This document shows positions 27,542-35,434 of a DNA stretch of 64,000 nt, one piece after another. A program made the translations under genes and the position numbers. Where the stretch lies: positions 62,001 through 126,000 of the forward strand of contig JANXRE010000019.1 in NCBI GenBank assembly GCA_025353165.1, read 5' to 3'. The notes beneath the pieces are model-generated. The model did not search any database. It was given only the letters and a program-made list of their open reading frames with translations, and was not told where the DNA came from. This DNA is from Acidobacteriota bacterium. Its GTDB lineage: Bacteria > Acidobacteriota > Terriglobia > Bryobacterales > Bryobacteraceae. Within the stretch, counting starts at the first letter, position 1. The number at the start of each line of letters is the position of its first letter.

Positions 27542-27639
27542 CGAATCGGCTGCGATTCGGTGACCGCCGGTCGCGCTCCTTCTTTTCCGCCGTTTGGATG
27601 GGTACTGAAATTGGACTGAACGGAGGAGTAGTATATGGA

Positions 27640-28524
27640 ATGCTCAAGAATCTCGGGGCGTATCTCGCGCTTCGTTTCTTCGGTGTTGTACTGCTCGCAG
27701 GAGCGTGTTGCGCGCAGTTTCCGGATCCGGGCGCGGCACCGCCACAACCGGCGCTTAAGCCGCTGATTGGCGAGTTTGGTTCGGGCCGCGGCGTGATTCG
27801 AATCGCCGAGCGCGACGGCCACCTCGTGGTCCTCGATTCGCAGGGGAACCAACTCCCGCGCGTCGAGTACCCGGAGGTCGCCAGGATCGCGCCCCTGCGC
27901 CCCATCGCGGAGCTTCAGCGGGAAGCCGCGGGTGCCCGGCCTCCGGAAGAGAAGGGCAACTTCAACAAGCCCGACCTCGTCGAGCTGCGTGACCTGGACC
28001 CCTCCATCCGGTACGACATCCGCTACGCGACGGCCCGCAATTTTCTAGGCACGCCGGTCTACCCCGAGGCTCGCGCGAAAATGCAGCGTCCCGCGGCGGA
28101 GGCGCTGGTTCGAGCGAGCCTTAAACTAAAGGCCCGCGGATTCGGCCTGTTGATCCACGATGCCTACCGCCCGTGGTTCGTGACGAAGATCTTCTGGGAC
28201 GCGACGCCGCCTGAAAAACACGATTTTGTCGCGGATCCCTCGCAGGGCTCGCGCCACAACCGGGGCTGCGCCGTGGATCTCACTCTGTACCTCCTTTCCA
28301 GCGGGAAGCCGGCCGATATGACCGGCGCATACGACGAGATGTCGGAGCGTTCCTATCCCACCTATCCGGGTGGAACTTCGCTCCAGCGGTGGAACCGGGA
28401 CGTGCTTCGGTGGGCCATGGAAAGCGAGGGATTCGAAGTATACCCGTTTGAGTGGTGGCACTTTGACTACAAAGACTGGAGCAAGTATCCGATTCTGAAC
28501 CTCACGCTGGATCGGCTACGCTAG
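27640..28524 (+). CDS. Exported D-alanyl-D-alanine dipeptidase (VanX-like, M15D)
   Basis: From ATG 27640 the protein has 294 residues with a signal peptide (about residues 1-26); GGAGGAG lies upstream. An ATG at 27598 would extend the N-terminus. Zinc ligands His206 and Asp213 (SRHNRGCAVD) and His274, with catalytic Glu271 (EWWHFD) and the Arg of AYRP (Arg177), match VanX. VanX-type enzymes split D-Ala-D-Ala; chromosomal, exported forms generally recycle peptidoglycan peptides rather than confer vancomycin resistance. About 75 extra residues precede the catalytic domain and form a small beta-rich segment of unknown role. Confidence 0.88.
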   Translation: MLKNLGAYLALRFFGVVLLAGACCAQFPDPGAAPPQPALKPLIGEFGSGRGVIRIAERDGHLVVLDSQGNQLPRVEYPEVARIAPLRPIAELQREAAGARPPEEKGNFNKPDLVELRDLDPSIRYDIRYATARNFLGTPVYPEARAKMQRPAAEALVRASLKLKARGFGLLIHDAYRPWFVTKIFWDATPPEKHDFVADPSQGSRHNRGCAVDLTLYLLSSGKPADMTGAYDEMSERSYPTYPGGTSLQRWNRDVLRWAMESEGFEVYPFEWWHFDYKDWSKYPILNLTLDRLR

Positions 28525-28923: not shown

Positions 28924-29490
28924 ATGAATACTCGCCGTTCGCTTCTATTCCGCGCCGCGCAGACGGCGCTCGCGGTTCCAGCACTGGGAATTCCGGGGCC
29001 ATTTCGTGGGGGCGTGGTCGAGGTCAGACGGGCGCGATCGAGCAGATGGTCCATTGCGGCATGACGGAACTGACCGGCGCGCCGGCCTGAACGAGGCTGG
29101 CGTTCCGAATCGCGACGTCATTGTCATTAACAGGTATCGCAAGGAACTCGTCGAGGCCGGAACGAAGATCAACAAGTTCATCCATCTCCCCGCCCTGAAG
29201 CACCATCAGTCGGCGGGCGTCATGGCCCTGAAGAACATGTCGCACGGACTCATGAACAACGTGTCGCGAAGCCACAGTTCGCCGACGCTGAACGCGTGCG
29301 GCACATTCATTCCGGCCGTCGTGAATCTGCCTGTCATCCGGCAAAATGCGGCGCTTCACATCGTCGATGGCGTCCGGGCTTCATGAGCACCTTCCTGAAT
29401 TACCAGGTGGAGCACATCGAAATCGCCGCTTCGCTCGGGCTCGGCGAATTCGACGATCGCTACATAAACCTCCGCCCTGTTCAACTCTGA
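28924..29490 (+). pseudogene. Degraded DUF362-type Tat-exported protein
   Basis: An intact start (ATG 28924) encodes a twin-arginine signal (MNTRRSLLFRAAQTALAVP), but this frame stops near 29064. Typical DUF362 blocks then follow in other frames: VINRYRKELVEAGTKINKF and LKHHQSAGVMALKNMSHGL (29130-29260), CGTFIPAVVNLPVIRQ (29295-29345), and the C-terminal FLNYQVEHIEIAASLGLG (29390-29450). The piece that should lie between LHIVDGV and STFLNYQ is missing. So there are several frameshifts plus internal deletions. It overlaps the end of the convergent 29481 gene by ten bases. Confidence 0.82.
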
Positions 29491-30653
29491 GCGCGCTGCG
29501 ATTGCAGAGGTGGTTGATAGCGGATGTCGAGGTGAGGCGTTTCTATTTTCCTGTATCCTCGAATTCGCGAGTCGAGGCAGGCTTCCACTAGCCCGCTCGT
29601 CAGTAGCGTGCGCTCCACCGGGTAGGGCGCTCGCCGGGTCACGAACATTTCCTCGATCTTGCTCACCAGGCACGCCGAGTAGGTGACGTTCGGCTCCGGC
29701 GTGAGCAGGAATTGCGTTGAGATCGGGCGTAGCGCGCCGCGAAGCTTCGCCGCGAACGTGAAATCCCGAACGGCCCCGTTCAACATGAGCAGCGTGGCTC
29801 GAGTCCCGTCGCGGTACTCGATGAAACAGGCAAGCGGTTTCTCGACGAGCCGCGGCAGCACGCCCGGCGCGGTCAGGTCCTGCGTGCGGCCGTCCGCCAG
29901 CGTGGCCCCGAGCGGGTTGTCGCTGCGCGAGAGCGCCGACGAGAACAGCGCTTTCGACCAGCGGCCGCTCCAAACGGCTTCGCCTTCGATGGTCTCGACG
30001 GATCGGACGCCGGTCTCGCCCCCGGCCCGGCGCTCCAACATGCATTGCATTGCCTCGAGCGCGTGGAATCCCATCGCGTCTGTGCCGCCGTTCCCCACCA
30101 TCACCGCTTCTTCCACGTGAGCGCCGTCCGGCATCTCGACATCCGGCAGGCGCCAAGTCACCGGCAGCGAAGATCCGGCCAGCAGGGGAAATCCGAGCCG
30201 CCGGGAAGCATCCACCATCTGCTTCGCCTTCTGGAAGCTGTACGAAAGATGCTTGTCGTTATAGACCGGAACGCTTCGGCCGTCGTCGTCAAACACGCGC
30301 ACGCACTGTTGGAAAAACTCGAAACGCGGATAGAGCGTCTGGCCCTTGTCGTTCAGAGGGTACTCGCCATGCTCGCCGATGATCAGGATGGCGTCGACGG
30401 CCAGCTTCGGATTGCCGCATCGCAGAGCGTCGGCGATATTCGGGTACACCGTAAACCCGAACTCCTTCGCGCGCCGCTCGCTGAGGTCGCCCTCCGGCTT
30501 CTGATCGACATACAGCGAAACGATTCTCACGTTCGGCCTGTGCCAGCAGCCCGCGGCCGGATAGCCCACCAGGAAGCGATCGGCAATGTGCTGCGCGTGC
30601 GACAGATAGCGGTATACGGTCGCGATGACGGCCACGCGAATTGGTTCAGCCAC
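29481..30653 (-). CDS. Conserved protein of unknown function, cytoplasmic paralogue of the next gene
   Basis: This 390-residue protein has no signal peptide and starts at GTG 30653 after a strong GGAGGAG that lies in the end of the upstream gene. It is a clear paralogue of the 30656-31918 protein: shared blocks include HAQHIADRFL, SLYVDQKPEGDL, GEHGEYP, VYNDKHLS, AGSSLPVTWR, ERRAGGETGVR, PVERTLLTSGL and RKIETPHLDIRYQP. Similar proteins occur in Planctomycetes and Acidobacteria but I know no function. The conserved His/Glu/Asp positions (GEHG, NDKH) could form a catalytic or metal site, which is inference. Confidence 0.75.
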   Translation of the reverse strand: MAEPIRVAVIATVYRYLSHAQHIADRFLVGYPAAGCWHRPNVRIVSLYVDQKPEGDLSERRAKEFGFTVYPNIADALRCGNPKLAVDAILIIGEHGEYPLNDKGQTLYPRFEFFQQCVRVFDDDGRSVPVYNDKHLSYSFQKAKQMVDASRRLGFPLLAGSSLPVTWRLPDVEMPDGAHVEEAVMVGNGGTDAMGFHALEAMQCMLERRAGGETGVRSVETIEGEAVWSGRWSKALFSSALSRSDNPLGATLADGRTQDLTAPGVLPRLVEKPLACFIEYRDGTRATLLMLNGAVRDFTFAAKLRGALRPISTQFLLTPEPNVTYSACLVSKIEEMFVTRRAPYPVERTLLTSGLVEACLDSRIRGYRKIETPHLDIRYQPPLQSQRAQS

Positions 30654-30655
30654 GT

Positions 30656-31918
30656 TTAGCTCCTCCAGAATGTCGAGCCCGGCGTAGGCTGGTACGCGAT
30701 TGCGAGGTGCGGTGTTTCGATCTTGCGGCCGGATTGAAACACGCTGTCCACGCCGGCGGCCGTCAGTCCCGTCGTCAGCAGCGTCCGCTCAATCGGGCTC
30801 GGAGTTTTACCGGTCAGGAACATCTGCTCGGCATGATTCACCAGCGGGCTGAAGAAGCTCGCCAGCGTCGTGCGCCCGTCGGGCATCGGCAGGTAGAGTT
30901 GCGTCGAAAAGATCTCCTTGCGGCCGCTCAGGCGGGCGGCGAAATTGAAATCGCTCAGCGCGCCGCCGAGAAGGATCATCGTGCAGCGGAGGCCGTCGGC
31001 ATGCTCGTAGTGATACGCGACGGGATCGGCAACCGTGCGGCGTAAGTCGTCGAGCGAAGGAAAGACGTCGTTGAAGCCCGGCCGCGCCGGTTTCAGAGTG
31101 TGGCTGCGGCACAAAGCGGCTTCGAAGAGATCGCGCGACCAGACACCCTGATTGTGAGCGGCCCAAAACTCATCGCCGCGGTACGATTGCAGCCAGCGTA
31201 CGCCGGATTCGCCGCCTCGCCGCCGCTCGACCATGCCCTGAATGGACTCCAGCCCGTGGAAGTCGTAGCTGTCTACGCCGCCGTAGCATACGCACAGCGC
31301 CTCTTCGGCATGGGCGCGATCGGGAAATTCAACGGACGGAATCCGCCAAGTCACGGGCAGACTCGATCCGGCCATGAAGGGAAATCGCATCGCCCGAGCT
31401 GTGTCGTACATTTCGCGAGCCCATTGCCACTTCCACGAGAGATGTTTGTCGTTGAAGACCGGCGCCGTTTTCCCGCTATCCCTGTAGACGGCGACGATCT
31501 GGTCGAAGAATTCCTTCCGCGGGTACTTCACCTGCCCTTGCGGCGTTTTCGGGTAATCGCCGTGTTCACCGACCAGCAACACTCCGTCCACCGCGAGTTT
31601 GCTACTGCCCATTGTCAGCGCTTCGGCGATCGTCGGATAAACACGCATGCCCGGGAATCGCGCCGCCCGCTCGCGAGTCAGGTCGCCCTCGGGATGCTGG
31701 TCTACATACAGCGAGACCAAATCCATCTCGGGATGGTGGTGCTCGCCATTCCAGCCGTACCCTTCGAGGAACCGATCGGCGATGTGCTGGCCGTGCGAGT
31801 ATTTTCGGTAGACAGTCACGACCGCGGCAATCTTCGGCCTCGATGCCGCGCGTCCCGCTTTCAGCCAAGCGGGCGCTAGCACGGCTGACTTGAGCAGGTC
31901 TCTACGACGGATGGACAT
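30656..31918 (-). CDS. Tat-exported conserved protein of unknown function
   Basis: The 420-residue protein begins with a twin-arginine signal (MSIRRRDLLKSAVLAPAWL), so it is exported folded. The rest parallels the downstream gene: VVTVYRKYSHGQHIADRFL, SLYVDQHPEGDL, GEHGDYP, FNDKHLSWK, AGSSLPVTWR, ERRRGGESGVR, IERTLLTTGL, RKIETPHLAIAYQP. The two lie two bases apart and are surely co-transcribed. They diverge, with 24 bases between starts, from the D-aminoacylase operon. Function is unknown; a role in processing the same substrate is suggested by position only. Confidence 0.78.
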   Translation of the reverse strand: MSIRRRDLLKSAVLAPAWLKAGRAASRPKIAAVVTVYRKYSHGQHIADRFLEGYGWNGEHHHPEMDLVSLYVDQHPEGDLTRERAARFPGMRVYPTIAEALTMGSSKLAVDGVLLVGEHGDYPKTPQGQVKYPRKEFFDQIVAVYRDSGKTAPVFNDKHLSWKWQWAREMYDTARAMRFPFMAGSSLPVTWRIPSVEFPDRAHAEEALCVCYGGVDSYDFHGLESIQGMVERRRGGESGVRWLQSYRGDEFWAAHNQGVWSRDLFEAALCRSHTLKPARPGFNDVFPSLDDLRRTVADPVAYHYEHADGLRCTMILLGGALSDFNFAARLSGRKEIFSTQLYLPMPDGRTTLASFFSPLVNHAEQMFLTGKTPSPIERTLLTTGLTAAGVDSVFQSGRKIETPHLAIAYQPTPGSTFWRS

Positions 31919-31942
31919 GGCGACACGGCCATTATAAGCAGT

Positions 31943-33478
31943 ATGCTGATGTCGATGATTGCGTTCGTAAACGGCACCATCGTGGACGGCAGCGGAAGGG
32001 ATCCCTATCGCGGCTTCGTTCGGTGCGATGGCGATCGCATCGTGGAGGTAAGTTCGGCGGAGCCGGCGCGCTTTGAACGCGAGATCGACTGCTCAGGCCT
32101 CGCGATCGCGCCGGGATTTCTCGACCTGCATAGCCACTCCGACTTGCAGGCGCTCGACGGCGCGCGGCTGGAAAAGGCGAAGCAGGGCGTGACGGCCGAG
32201 GTGGTCGGCAACTGCGGCTTCTCGCCGTTCCCAAGGGACGGCCACGCGGCGGATGTGCGGGACTTTGCGCGGGGAATCTTCCGCGAAGATGGCGATTGGG
32301 GTTGGGAATCGGCGCGCGACTATCTCAACGCCGCGGCGTCGTCGTCCGGCGCAACCGAAGTACATGCGCTCGCGGGTCACGGTAGCCTGCGGGTTGCGGT
32401 GGCCGGCATGCGGCAGCGCATCACCACCCCACACCGCGAACGGATGGGCCAACTGCTCGAGGCCGCGCTGGACGAGGGCTGCGCGGGATTCTCCACCGGC
32501 CTGATGTACGCGCCGGGATCCTCGGCGGGCCCGCGCGAGATTGAGCCGTTCCTGTCCTTGGTCAGCGCGCGGGACCGGCTGTACGCGACGCACATGCGCA
32601 GCTATTCCTCGGGGCTGATCGCGGCGCTGCGAGAGCAGATCGGTATGGCGCGCAATACCGGATGCCGCATACAGATCTCGCATTTGCAGGCGGCGGGCCG
32701 CGCGAACTGGGGGTTGATTGCGGACGCGCTGGGCGAGATCGAGGCGGCGCGCCGCGACGGCATCGACATCGAGTTCGACATTTATCCGTACCAGTGCGGC
32801 AGTACGGTGCTGACACAATGGCTGCCGCGTTGGGCGCTTGACGGCGGCATGGATGCGATGTGCAAGCGTCTGTCGAACGAGCGCGACCGGCATCGCGTCG
32901 CGCAACATATCGAATCCACCATCCCGCAAGGATGGGACGACGTCACAGTTACCGGCGTACGCTCCGAGGCGAACACCGCCCTGGTGGGCAGCACTCTCGC
33001 GGACATCGCGAAACGATGGTCCTCGGAGCCGGTGGAGGCCATGCTCGAACTGCTGCTTCAGGAGCGCGGCGCGGTCAACGTGGTGTCGTTCAATCAGAGC
33101 GAAGAGAATCTTCGAGCGCTCCTGACCCACCCGCTTTGCTCCGTCATCAGCGATGGATTCTACGTTCGCGGACTTCCGCACCCGCGACTGCACGGGACAT
33201 TTCCCGAATTACTCGGGACCGTGGTGCGCGAGAAGAAATGGATGACGCTGGCCGAGGCCGTTCATAAAATAACGGCCAAGCCCGCGGCGCGGTTGGGTCT
33301 GAAGGAACGTGGCCTGATAGCGCGCGGATATCGCGCCGACCTCGTCGTCTTCGATCCCGATCGCATCGCGAGCCCGGCAACTTATCAAAAGCCCGAGCAG
33401 GACCCCGTGGGCATCGCCGCCGTATATCGTGGAGGACGACATGAAGATCGAACATTTTCGCTGGCCGGAGTTGCCTGA
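31943..33478 (+). CDS. N-acyl-D-amino-acid deacylase (D-aminoacylase) family amidohydrolase
   Basis: This 511-residue cytoplasmic enzyme has the amidohydrolase pattern GFLDLHSHSD (metal His pair), the D-aminoacylase-specific Cys in EVVGNCGFSPF, a His in THMRSYS, another in QISHLQ, and the late Asp in VISDGFYV. These are the zinc-site residues of N-acyl-D-amino-acid deacylases, which release D-amino acids from N-acyl forms. Starts at 31943, 31949 or 31955 are all possible. The end overlaps the creatininase gene by 38 bases. The operon (deacylase, creatininase, MFS) looks like import and breakdown of an amide or cyclic amide compound. Confidence 0.85.
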   Translation: MLMSMIAFVNGTIVDGSGRDPYRGFVRCDGDRIVEVSSAEPARFEREIDCSGLAIAPGFLDLHSHSDLQALDGARLEKAKQGVTAEVVGNCGFSPFPRDGHAADVRDFARGIFREDGDWGWESARDYLNAAASSSGATEVHALAGHGSLRVAVAGMRQRITTPHRERMGQLLEAALDEGCAGFSTGLMYAPGSSAGPREIEPFLSLVSARDRLYATHMRSYSSGLIAALREQIGMARNTGCRIQISHLQAAGRANWGLIADALGEIEAARRDGIDIEFDIYPYQCGSTVLTQWLPRWALDGGMDAMCKRLSNERDRHRVAQHIESTIPQGWDDVTVTGVRSEANTALVGSTLADIAKRWSSEPVEAMLELLLQERGAVNVVSFNQSEENLRALLTHPLCSVISDGFYVRGLPHPRLHGTFPELLGTVVREKKWMTLAEAVHKITAKPAARLGLKERGLIARGYRADLVVFDPDRIASPATYQKPEQDPVGIAAVYRGGRHEDRTFSLAGVA

Positions 33479-34217
33479 AGCGGCGGGTCGCGTTTTCGTA
33501 GTCCCGCTGGGATCGATCGAGCAGCACGGGCCTCATCTGCCGCTCGGCACCGATTCGATGATCGTGTCGGAGGTGGCTCAACGAGTCGACGCGGTGCTCG
33601 ATGCCGGCGTGGTGATGTTGCCAACGATGTGGCTGGGGCACTCGCCGCACCATCGCCGCTTTGGCTGCGTCAGCCTCGACCTGATTCCGTACGTCCAGAT
33701 GATGCAAGGCATTTGCCGGTCCCTGGTAGCGATGGGAGCGCGCAAGGTTCTCCTGCTGAACGGGCACGGCGGCAACGACATTCCATGCAAGGCGGCGCTA
33801 CGCGAGCTCAAGTCGGAGTTCGCCGCGCGCCGGGATCTCTACATCGCCTATGCGACCTACTGGAATCTTGCGGCCGCCGAGTTCACTGACATTCGAACCT
33901 CGCCCCAAGGGGGAATGGGCCACGCCTGCGAGATGGAAACGTCGGTGATGCTCGCGGTGCACCCGAACCTGGTTGCGCCCGGACCGCACGAAGGCGGCGG
34001 CCCATATCGCGAAACGGGTCACCGGCGAATCGACATGCTCGCATCCCAGCCGTACTACATCGTCAACGATTTCGACGAGCTGTCGCCCAACGGAGTGATC
34101 GGGCTGCCCGCCTACGCGGATGCGGAAAAGGGACGGCGCTTCCTCGATGCCGCCGCGAATGCCACTGTCGCGTTCATCCGCGATTTCGCGGCGTGGAATT
34201 ATCAGGAGCGCGAATGA
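33441..34217 (+). CDS. Creatininase-family amidohydrolase
   Basis: From ATG 33441, six bases after GGAGG, the protein has 258 residues. Metal ligands are visible in GSIEQHGPHLPLGTD (Glu, His, Asp), HGGN in LLLNGHGGND, and Glu in ACEMETS. Creatininase-family enzymes open cyclic amides or cut formamide and peptide bonds (creatinine, FAPy deformylase, MftE). The exact substrate is unknown; the neighbour genes suggest an amide derived from amino acids. It overlaps the deacylase gene upstream and the MFS start downstream (ATGA). Confidence 0.85.
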   Translation: MKIEHFRWPELPEAAGRVFVVPLGSIEQHGPHLPLGTDSMIVSEVAQRVDAVLDAGVVMLPTMWLGHSPHHRRFGCVSLDLIPYVQMMQGICRSLVAMGARKVLLLNGHGGNDIPCKAALRELKSEFAARRDLYIAYATYWNLAAAEFTDIRTSPQGGMGHACEMETSVMLAVHPNLVAPGPHEGGGPYRETGHRRIDMLASQPYYIVNDFDELSPNGVIGLPAYADAEKGRRFLDAAANATVAFIRDFAAWNYQERE

Positions 34218-35434
34218 GCCGCCGCTGGGTGGTTCTTGTTCTGATCTTCTTCGGTATTCTTATCAGCTATGTCGACCGCGGAAACCTGAGCATCGCAGCC
34301 GTCGAGATCATGCGCGACTTCGGCTTCTCCGCGGCGCTCATGGGCACTCTGTTGTCCTGCTTTTTCTGGACCTACGGCGTATTCCAGGTCCCGGCCGGAT
34401 TATTCGTGGACCGGTATGGCATTCGGAACGTGTACGCGCTCGGGTTTCTGATCTGGTCTCTCGCTTCGGCCAGCATCGCGTTGAGCGCCGGCTTCGGCTC
34501 GATACTCGGATCGCGGCTGGTCCTGGGCATGGCGGAATCGATCGGTCCGCTCGCCAGCATGGCTTTCATCCGGCGGACTTTCGCGCCGGCGGAGCAGGGC
34601 TTCCCGACCTCGGTTTACATCGCTGGCCAGACCCTCGGACCTGCGCTCGGAGCGTGGCTCGGGACCATCCTGCTGAATGCGTTCGGCTGGCGGCCGATGT
34701 TCGCCGTTACCGGGCTATTCGCACTGATATGGCTCGTGCCCTGGCTCGTTTTCGCTCCGCGCGACGGCGCACCCGCCGCGGCCGCGCAGCCGGCGCCGCA
34801 TCCCGCGGCCCGCGTCATTGTTTCCCACGCCGGCTTCTGGACTTTGTCCTCCTGCGCATTCCTGCTGTCGTACTTCTGGTATTTCGTTCTGACCTGGGTT
34901 CCCGCGTACCTCCGCATGGTTCACGGATTCACGTCGCTGGAAATGGGCCGTATCATGGCCGTCCCGCTGGCGGCAATGGCGGTGACCAGCCTGGGTGGTG
35001 GATTCTTCGCGGACCGCGCGGCCCGGCGATGGAATTCCGCGATTCGCGCGCGTGTGGTTTTCGCCGCCAGCGGTCTTATCGGAGCTTCGTCGCTGCTGGC
35101 GCTGCGGTTTGCGCCAGATCGGTCGTGGGCACTGCCCGTACTCTTCGTCGCGATGTGCTCGTTCGGCGTCGCGAGCTCGAGTTATTGGGCGCTCGTGCAA
35201 GCGACCGCACCCGCGGCTTTGATTGGCCGCTCCATCGGATACCTGAACACGATTGCGCAGGTCGCGGGCGCGGCGGCGCCGCAAATTACGGGGTGGCTCA
35301 TTGGTCCGTCCCATCGCTTCGGACCCGCAATCATCATCGCCGGCCTGTGTCCCGCGGTCGCGTGTCTGGCTTTGTTCGCGACCGGCCCGAGGCGCATCTC
35401 CGCGCTGCGCGACGCCCTTTCGGCTACGAACTGA
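34214..35434 (+). CDS. MFS transporter, anion:cation symporter (ACS)-like
   Basis: The 406-residue protein has twelve predicted membrane helices. It begins with the ACS-type helix pattern (FGILISYVDRGNLSIAA) and the MFS motif A region (GLFVDRYGIRNV). ACS members import organic acids such as sugar acids, tartrate or phthalate with a proton. The start ATG at 34214 overlaps the creatininase stop, so it is the third gene of the operon and likely brings in the substrate of the deacylase or creatininase. Confidence 0.85.
   Translation: MSRRWVVLVLIFFGILISYVDRGNLSIAAVEIMRDFGFSAALMGTLLSCFFWTYGVFQVPAGLFVDRYGIRNVYALGFLIWSLASASIALSAGFGSILGSRLVLGMAESIGPLASMAFIRRTFAPAEQGFPTSVYIAGQTLGPALGAWLGTILLNAFGWRPMFAVTGLFALIWLVPWLVFAPRDGAPAAAAQPAPHPAARVIVSHAGFWTLSSCAFLLSYFWYFVLTWVPAYLRMVHGFTSLEMGRIMAVPLAAMAVTSLGGGFFADRAARRWNSAIRARVVFAASGLIGASSLLALRFAPDRSWALPVLFVAMCSFGVASSSYWALVQATAPAALIGRSIGYLNTIAQVAGAAAPQITGWLIGPSHRFGPAIIIAGLCPAVACLALFATGPRRISALRDALSATN

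Follow-up and report, generated by a model that had tools for sequence, protein, structure and literature searches.

What do two tandem paralogous genes make when family models name neither product and only one product carries an export signal? We addressed this question for a 64,000-nucleotide stretch (hereafter the window) of the Acidobacteriota bacterium assembly GCA_025353165.1 (contig JANXRE010000019.1), in which two adjacent minus-strand genes, here called A and B, encode proteins that no model names in Pfam and NCBIfam scans. The structural evidence strongly supports a full Gfo/Idh/MocA oxidoreductase fold for the predicted model of A. Gene pairing, gene fusion and the distribution of export signals lead us to propose, with a probability of roughly two in three, that A and B would form a heterodimer of divergent Gfo/Idh/MocA-fold subunits co-exported by a hitchhiker mechanism through the twin-arginine translocation (Tat) system.

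The B gene begins 2 bases past the end of A, making A the upstream gene (Table 1). The N terminus of A, MSIRRRDLLKSAVLAPAWLKAG, is Tat-like, whereas the B start codon lies only 4 codons ahead of the conserved core and leaves no room for a signal. The two proteins are identical at 193 of 386 positions (50%; BLASTP E 7e-130). A preliminary description made from the DNA alone had reported all of this locus accurately: the tandem paralogues, six conserved sequence blocks that we find in both proteins, the twin-arginine signal on A and its absence from B as read from the N termini, and the 24-base gap to a divergent gene run. Its interpretation, in which an exported and a cytoplasmic enzyme serve the breakdown of some amide or N-acyl substrate, is partly supported.

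A Pfam scan of A, B and 30 family members at E values up to 1, of which HMMER filtering removes most hits weaker than about 0.1, returned no Gfo/Idh/MocA model, and the 30 members gave just weak signal-peptide and chance-level matches. Searching A by sequence against solved structures likewise found nothing (best E 1.9). A profile of the family did align, below threshold, with the EKP region of a Gfo protein (E 0.27), and this hint led us to test the fold. The structure-prediction check suggested in the preliminary description yielded a confident AlphaFold2 model of A (predicted local distance difference test score, pLDDT, 91.9; predicted template modelling score, pTM, 0.89) with candidate cleft residues. 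It was built on alignment A3, whose 89 rows comprise A and B of the window, 48 of the 77 available A rows and 39 of the 73 available B rows; the A of locus L107, which has an internal stop, was left out. The model contains the two-domain Gfo/Idh/MocA fold, a Rossmann domain with a C-terminal alpha/beta domain. Foldseek returned Gfo/Idh/MocA-type matches (best E 1.8e-11), and VIA-align placed GenD2 (6nor; Z 25.2, 285 residues, 3.5 Å) and an inositol dehydrogenase (4mie; Z 24.9, 290 residues) at the top. The top 50 VIA-align entries are of this type as judged by their titles, cover approximately residues 24–408 of A and share 8–16% identity with it. Profile comparison by hhalign of the family with 14 canonical Gfo proteins from the same genome, signal peptides trimmed, matched the N-terminal domain (E 5.3e-6, 86% probability); in comparisons that kept the signal peptides the probability was 95–96%, part of that score being due to the signals. 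PF01408, the Gfo/Idh/MocA domain, has 62 matches in this genome (5.8 Mb), and several of the 30 such loci inspected have Tat-like N termini.

The likeness to Gfo/Idh/MocA proteins (PF01408; GenD2 6nor, myo-inositol dehydrogenases 4mie and 3nt2) thus consists of the full-length two-domain fold and a lysine at the EKP position. The differences are the 8–16% identity, the lack of a Pfam or NCBIfam match, the loss of the GxGxxG motif, DKH in place of EKP and the probable pairing of unlike subunits. Because the scaffold is shared but the defining sequence features are absent, we regard A and B as a divergent relative of the family and not as members of it. The fold is also not that of an amidase, and the preliminary description had itself named a match to a known unrelated enzyme class as evidence against its proposal.

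The three glycines of GxGxxG occur together in none of the 89 A3 rows and in none of the 30 rows of A2, a broader alignment that overlaps A3 in part, and glycine is found at position 36 or 39 in no row; a T-x-Y-x-x-x-S-H-like stretch stands where the loop was. With this loop gone, the usual mode of NAD(P) binding in the cleft is, as far as can be read from sequence, improbable. The EKP position reads D-K-H (D157 in 83/89 A3 rows, K158 in 86/89, H159 in 78/89). K158 is aligned by hhalign to the EKP catalytic lysine and is kept in 93/93 A and 87/93 B proteins. H221, kept in 93/93 A and 82/93 B proteins, lies in a G-G...H...E context similar to that of the catalytic histidine, a placement made by motif without a reliable alignment. 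The retention of this lysine and the downstream histidine makes it likely that the ancestral sugar-oxidoreductase site still supports a reaction.

Compatible with a heterodimer, the chemistry could be that of a normal Gfo/Idh/MocA oxidoreductase that uses NAD(P), has a nucleotide loop changed in sequence only, and takes a sugar or sugar acid as its substrate. The closest folds are NAD-dependent sugar and inositol dehydrogenases, the EKP-position lysine is present in all but three of the 89 rows, the acidic residue that ends strand 2 (D73) is D or E in 83/89, and a galactonate-type transporter is encoded next door. Yet the three glycines, lacking from every A2 and A3 row, are kept in 14, 14 and 13 of the 14 canonical counterparts that the genome encodes, and we would give this chemistry well under even odds. 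An exported relative of the same fold is the glucose-fructose oxidoreductase of Zymomonas (1rye, 1h6d, 1ofg), a Tat-exported Gfo protein that forms a homo-oligomer with tightly bound NADP. It has the Gfo fold in common with A; A and B differ from it in lacking the NADP loop motif and in probably forming a complex of two unlike subunits.

The family occurs in 43 of the 101 genomes near the window (own genome included), several with many copies and some with up to 15 matches, and in 13 of 297 genomes of a wider sample of the phylum, again counting its own. The best 80 of 565 confirmed matches carry the labels Acidobacteriota, Poribacteria, Latescibacterota, Planctomycetota, Chloroflexota, Gemmatimonadota, Armatimonadota and Akkermansia (Verrucomicrobiota) or are unassigned, although the organism labels of metagenome-assembled genomes may be wrong. 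We considered 115 loci (the window, L021–L054 and L081–L160); removal of 3 without an A-type match and 9 duplicates left 103. In 97 of these, the two genes share a strand, with B at most 3.6 kb downstream of A. L045 and L159 are truncated by contig ends or contain an incomplete B, and in L094 and L109 the genes are spaced more widely than usual. In four loci A and B are fused in a single open reading frame (ORF): L105 (836 amino acids), L122 (810), L127 (906) and L051 (835). Three of these fusions come from genomes labelled Chloroflexota and one from the window's own family; the L051 fusion has a single N-terminal Tat signal.

We modelled the natural L122 fusion on a paired alignment of 22 rows, since unpaired A and B rows put all invariant columns on the B half. 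The 810-residue model scores pLDDT 90.0 and pTM 0.89, with pLDDT below 50 only at residues 324–326 and in the linker (404–417). Such high scores would be surprising for two equal domains that lacked a fixed mutual arrangement, and the model therefore suggests that the arrangement of A and B is fixed. A fold search with the fusion model gave the same single-domain matches again.

The Tat signal does not stay with one partner. A motif rule of our own making, its calls altered by eye in 5 of 93 pairs (L025 and L082 to A only, L136 and L141 to B only, L100 to neither), was applied to the 93 pairs left when 10 of the 103 loci had no readable state for A or B. It assigns the signal to A only in 31 pairs, to B only in 25, to both in 11 and to neither in 26. 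One signal per pair is thus the state of 56 of the 67 signal-bearing pairs, and in 48 of these 56 the other partner has no start codon 15–60 codons upstream of its core, which leaves no room for a signal there. The 26 pairs with neither all fall on one side of a branch (100/99) on the tree of A and are labelled Poribacteria, Latescibacterota, Chloroflexota, Gemmatimonadota and Armatimonadota, with one unassigned; after the corrections, every acidobacterial or planctomycete pair on the tree has at least one signal. For one-signal pairs the best tree shows four changes of carrier; it also needs four changes for the B-only label, three of them forced by well-supported branches. In the three contrasts on well-supported branches, B changes in the opposite way to A in 1–3 cases and, among signal-bearing pairs, never in the same way; with all 93 rows, same-way changes number 0–1.

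These swaps bear on the reading of the preliminary description, in which A would be a secreted enzyme and B a separate cytoplasmic one, two steps of amide or N-acyl catabolism together with the divergent operon. The window fits this arrangement, with a Tat signal on A, none on B, and hydrolase and transporter genes that lie alongside and are retained in other arrangements elsewhere. One exported and one cytoplasmic step does not hold as a general picture, however, when the signal is as often on B as the counts above show and four loci encode both proteins in one ORF, in one case behind a single signal. The signal-bearing partner has, moreover, lost candidate cleft residues in 9 of the 25 B-only pairs, and the fold is not that of an amidase. 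We consider separate compartments unlikely; signal swaps between A and B together with the fusions make the pair better read as one complex.

Asymmetric decay of the two clefts points the same way. The conserved cleft candidates of A are H42, E118, H119, D157, K158, H159, H221 and E224. Across phyla, E118, K158, H221 and E224 are present in 93/93 A proteins and H119 in 92/93. E118, H119, K158 and H221 are all intact in 92/93 A compared with 81/93 B proteins, which leaves 12 damaged B proteins, 9 of them in B-only pairs, where the sole signal-bearer is the damaged one. A damaged, signal-bearing B beside an intact, signal-less A makes sense if B carries A. In an alternative reading, A and B would be separate, functionally interchangeable homodimers, either of which might be exported in a given lineage. 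That arrangement draws on the 50% identity of the paralogues and on stand-alone relatives with Tat-like N termini, which are common; the A–B gene order, the pairing in 97 of 103 loci, the fusions and the damage to B while A stays intact speak against it, and we find it quite improbable. The loss of GxGxxG and the lack of a known catalytic assignment could also be read as signs of a complex without catalysis, descended from Gfo/Idh/MocA proteins and serving for binding or as a scaffold, but residues conserved in A to the extent just described are expected of an active site, which makes such a complex very improbable.

Pairing, fusion and the damaged B that carries the signal therefore favour a hitchhiker heterodimer. 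In this proposal A and B, expressed from a two-gene operon, would fold and assemble in the cytoplasm into a single obligate heterodimer. In Acidobacteriota and Planctomycetota, Tat would carry the complex across the membrane by one signal peptide, borne in this genome by A, with B leaving as the hitchhiker. A, whose candidate cleft residues are almost never lost, would be the catalytic subunit, and B a partner that in some lineages may have decayed towards a carrier and scaffold. In this genome the complex would probably act outside the cytoplasm, on a compound that is further broken down by way of the MFS importer and the C–N hydrolases (the amidohydrolase and the creatininase) of the divergent run.

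Several observations weigh against this proposal. The complex itself, a model-dependent conclusion, rests on the fusions and one predicted structure. Four loci (L133, L135, L155, L156) have A with no B nearby, and stand-alone Tat-like relatives are common (L055–L080, with no B in the fetched stretch), so the fold is not always in need of a hetero-partner. Eleven pairs have a signal on both partners. The uncorrected motif rule gives 30 A-only, 23 B-only, 11 both and 29 neither, and places four acidobacterial pairs in the last class. Independent contrasts are few, with three pairs on well-supported branches, and a sign test for correlated signal changes is not significant. Six of the nine damaged B proteins in B-only pairs belong to one acidobacterial clade, and L046, with a damaged B in a B-only pair, has an A that has also lost H119. 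For the fold, hhalign with the broader A2 alignment and no signal peptide gave 36% probability over 32 columns.

Divergent from the pair runs a set of three genes (Table 1). Pfam confirms an amidohydrolase, a creatininase and an MFS transporter here; the name D-aminoacylase given to the first in the preliminary description is too loose, as its score with the top NCBIfam model, 152.7, falls short of the cut-off (340). Alternative in-frame ATGs of the amidohydrolase gene at 31949 and 31955 would widen the intergenic gap to 30 or 36 bases, and a scan of 31700–32150 for sigma-70-type promoters found no site, and so does not show the shared control of the divergent genes that the preliminary description had thought likely. 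The ATGs at 33441 and 34214 are the likelier starts of the creatininase and the transporter. The nearest NCBIfam model of the transporter is TIGR00893 (D-galactonate transporter), with a score under its cut-off. On the other side of the pair, an ORF at 29006–29383 inside the decayed DUF362 gene has a weak Pfam match (9.7e-5) just under the cut-off.

Table 1. The A–B pair and adjoining features of the window.
Feature	Position	Strand	Details
A	30656-31918	-	420 aa; ATG start; upstream gene of the pair; divergent Gfo/Idh/MocA-fold protein (predicted) with Tat-like signal
B	29481-30653	-	390 aa; GTG start; paralogue of A without signal
Gap between divergent start codons of A and amidohydrolase	31919-31942	.	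24 bases
Amidohydro_3 (D-aminoacylase-like) amidohydrolase	31943-33478	+	511 aa; PF07969, E 2.2e-29
Creatininase-family amidohydrolase	33429-34217	+	PF02633, E 3.2e-63
MFS transporter	34193-35434	+	MFS_1 PF07690, E 5.2e-53
Decayed DUF362 gene	28971-29487	+	matches DUF362 residues 33-374 of relatives; frames change over ~500 bases; reaches the end of B

Farther out, a D-Ala-D-Ala dipeptidase gene (27598–28521, plus strand; PF01427, E 2.6e-36) with a signal-like N terminus lies near the other peptide and amide hydrolases. A phosphate transporter gene (PF01384; 26556–27484, minus strand), in which the ORF 26816–27484 matches only positions 1–145 of 350 and another ORF overlaps in a different frame, may be broken or frameshifted.

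Do such hydrolases accompany the pair elsewhere? M19 dipeptidase is the commonest neighbour, found in 20 of 103 loci, 19 of them with the gene upstream of and divergent from A, and in 15 of 74 scanned upstream neighbours. In the stretches fetched around the pair (distances up to about 7.4 kb), creatininase occurs in 15 of the 103 loci, DUF362 in 11 and MFS in 8, all three counts taking in the window. The neighbour scans covered 74 of the 87 ORF calls upstream and 73 of the 85 downstream, the omissions being mostly very long ORFs, and the simple ORF caller errs, having missed the upstream creatininase of L147. Compared with numbers expected from simple length ratios, M19 lies within 500 bases of 23 of 120 family places in 101 relatives (about 0.3 expected), M81 (MlrC) within 3 kb of 11 (0.6 expected; one of the 11 is a short piece under the family cut-off) and creatininase within 3 kb of 5, the window included (0.6 expected). 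This comparison takes the 120 family places and 150 M19 rows among the matches listed, with tandem partners left out; creatininase and M81 rows were chosen by visual inspection from contigs that also carry the family, and their observed counts may be low.

The co-occurrence survey that the preliminary description had called for thus shows creatininase, and M19 with it, as neighbours above chance in a minority of loci. The window's own type of amidohydrolase adjoins the pair in only three distinct loci: the window, L033/L086 (the same contig) and L118. In L033 and L118, two other Acidobacteria, the amidohydrolase–creatininase–MFS trio follows B in one same-strand run. Another amidohydrolase cluster appears in four further distinct loci (L036, L093, L138, L146). 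We reject a link to D-aminoacylase as a general rule. The pair's link to peptide and amide metallo-hydrolases (M19, creatininase, M81) is real but loose, is confined to a minority of loci and fits several substrates; the proposed amide or N-acyl connection survives in that form. Compared with known amidohydrolase/creatininase clusters (PF07969, PF02633), the window and a minority of other loci have such genes adjoining the pair, but A and B are unrelated to amidases by fold.

Other parts of the family have neighbours of their own. In ten Poribacteria loci (L094, L095, L100, L107, L110, L111, L117, L119, L126, L128) a metallo-beta-lactamase-fold protein precedes the pair, joined in nine by a PhyH dioxygenase; a small unknown protein precedes the pair in six loci of this set or L109. 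These neighbours suggest a different pathway around the pair there. The stand-alone branch (L055–L080) is approximately 42–50% identical to B, with mostly Tat-like N termini by eye. Its neighbour clusters, each named from one scanned representative, include M19 (8 of 26 loci), M81 MlrC (5), SMP-30 lactonase (5) and the enolase superfamily (4).

Known Tat hitchhiker complexes offer the closest parallel for export. In hydrogenases, formate dehydrogenases and PaoABC, as described in two papers (PMC10924467, PMC4273604), just one subunit has the signal. A and B likewise mostly comprise one signal-bearing and one signal-less partner, for which co-export would be expected. They appear to differ from the complexes described there in that the partners are paralogues, that the signal sits on either by lineage and that their export is read from the genes. 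Among the titles and abstract openings surveyed, no paper dealt with an A–B pair or with Tat signal swapping between paralogous subunits.

The finding is genuine, and its interest lies in what is probably a single complex of two subunits, built on a heavily altered dehydrogenase scaffold, with an export tag that is borne by one subunit or the other depending on the lineage. More broadly, and at somewhat under even odds, we tentatively suggest a widespread, unannotated enzyme class derived from the Gfo/Idh/MocA fold minus its dinucleotide loop. It would be an obligate heterodimer of one catalytic subunit and one drifting towards an export carrier, its single Tat signal having moved several times (four on the best tree), with an extracytoplasmic chemistry of its own tied to peptide and amide hydrolases. 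A family that the Pfam and NCBIfam models scanned did not recognise now has a fold, along with residues that can be put to the test. An inference that signal peptides alone easily invite is also corrected: lack of a signal need not place a protein in the cytoplasm when its neighbouring paralogue is exported. If the pair is a hitchhiker, the swap of the signal between homologous subunits would show how Tat co-export evolves, and the family would provide ready comparisons of the same complex with its signal borne by A, by B, by both or by neither.

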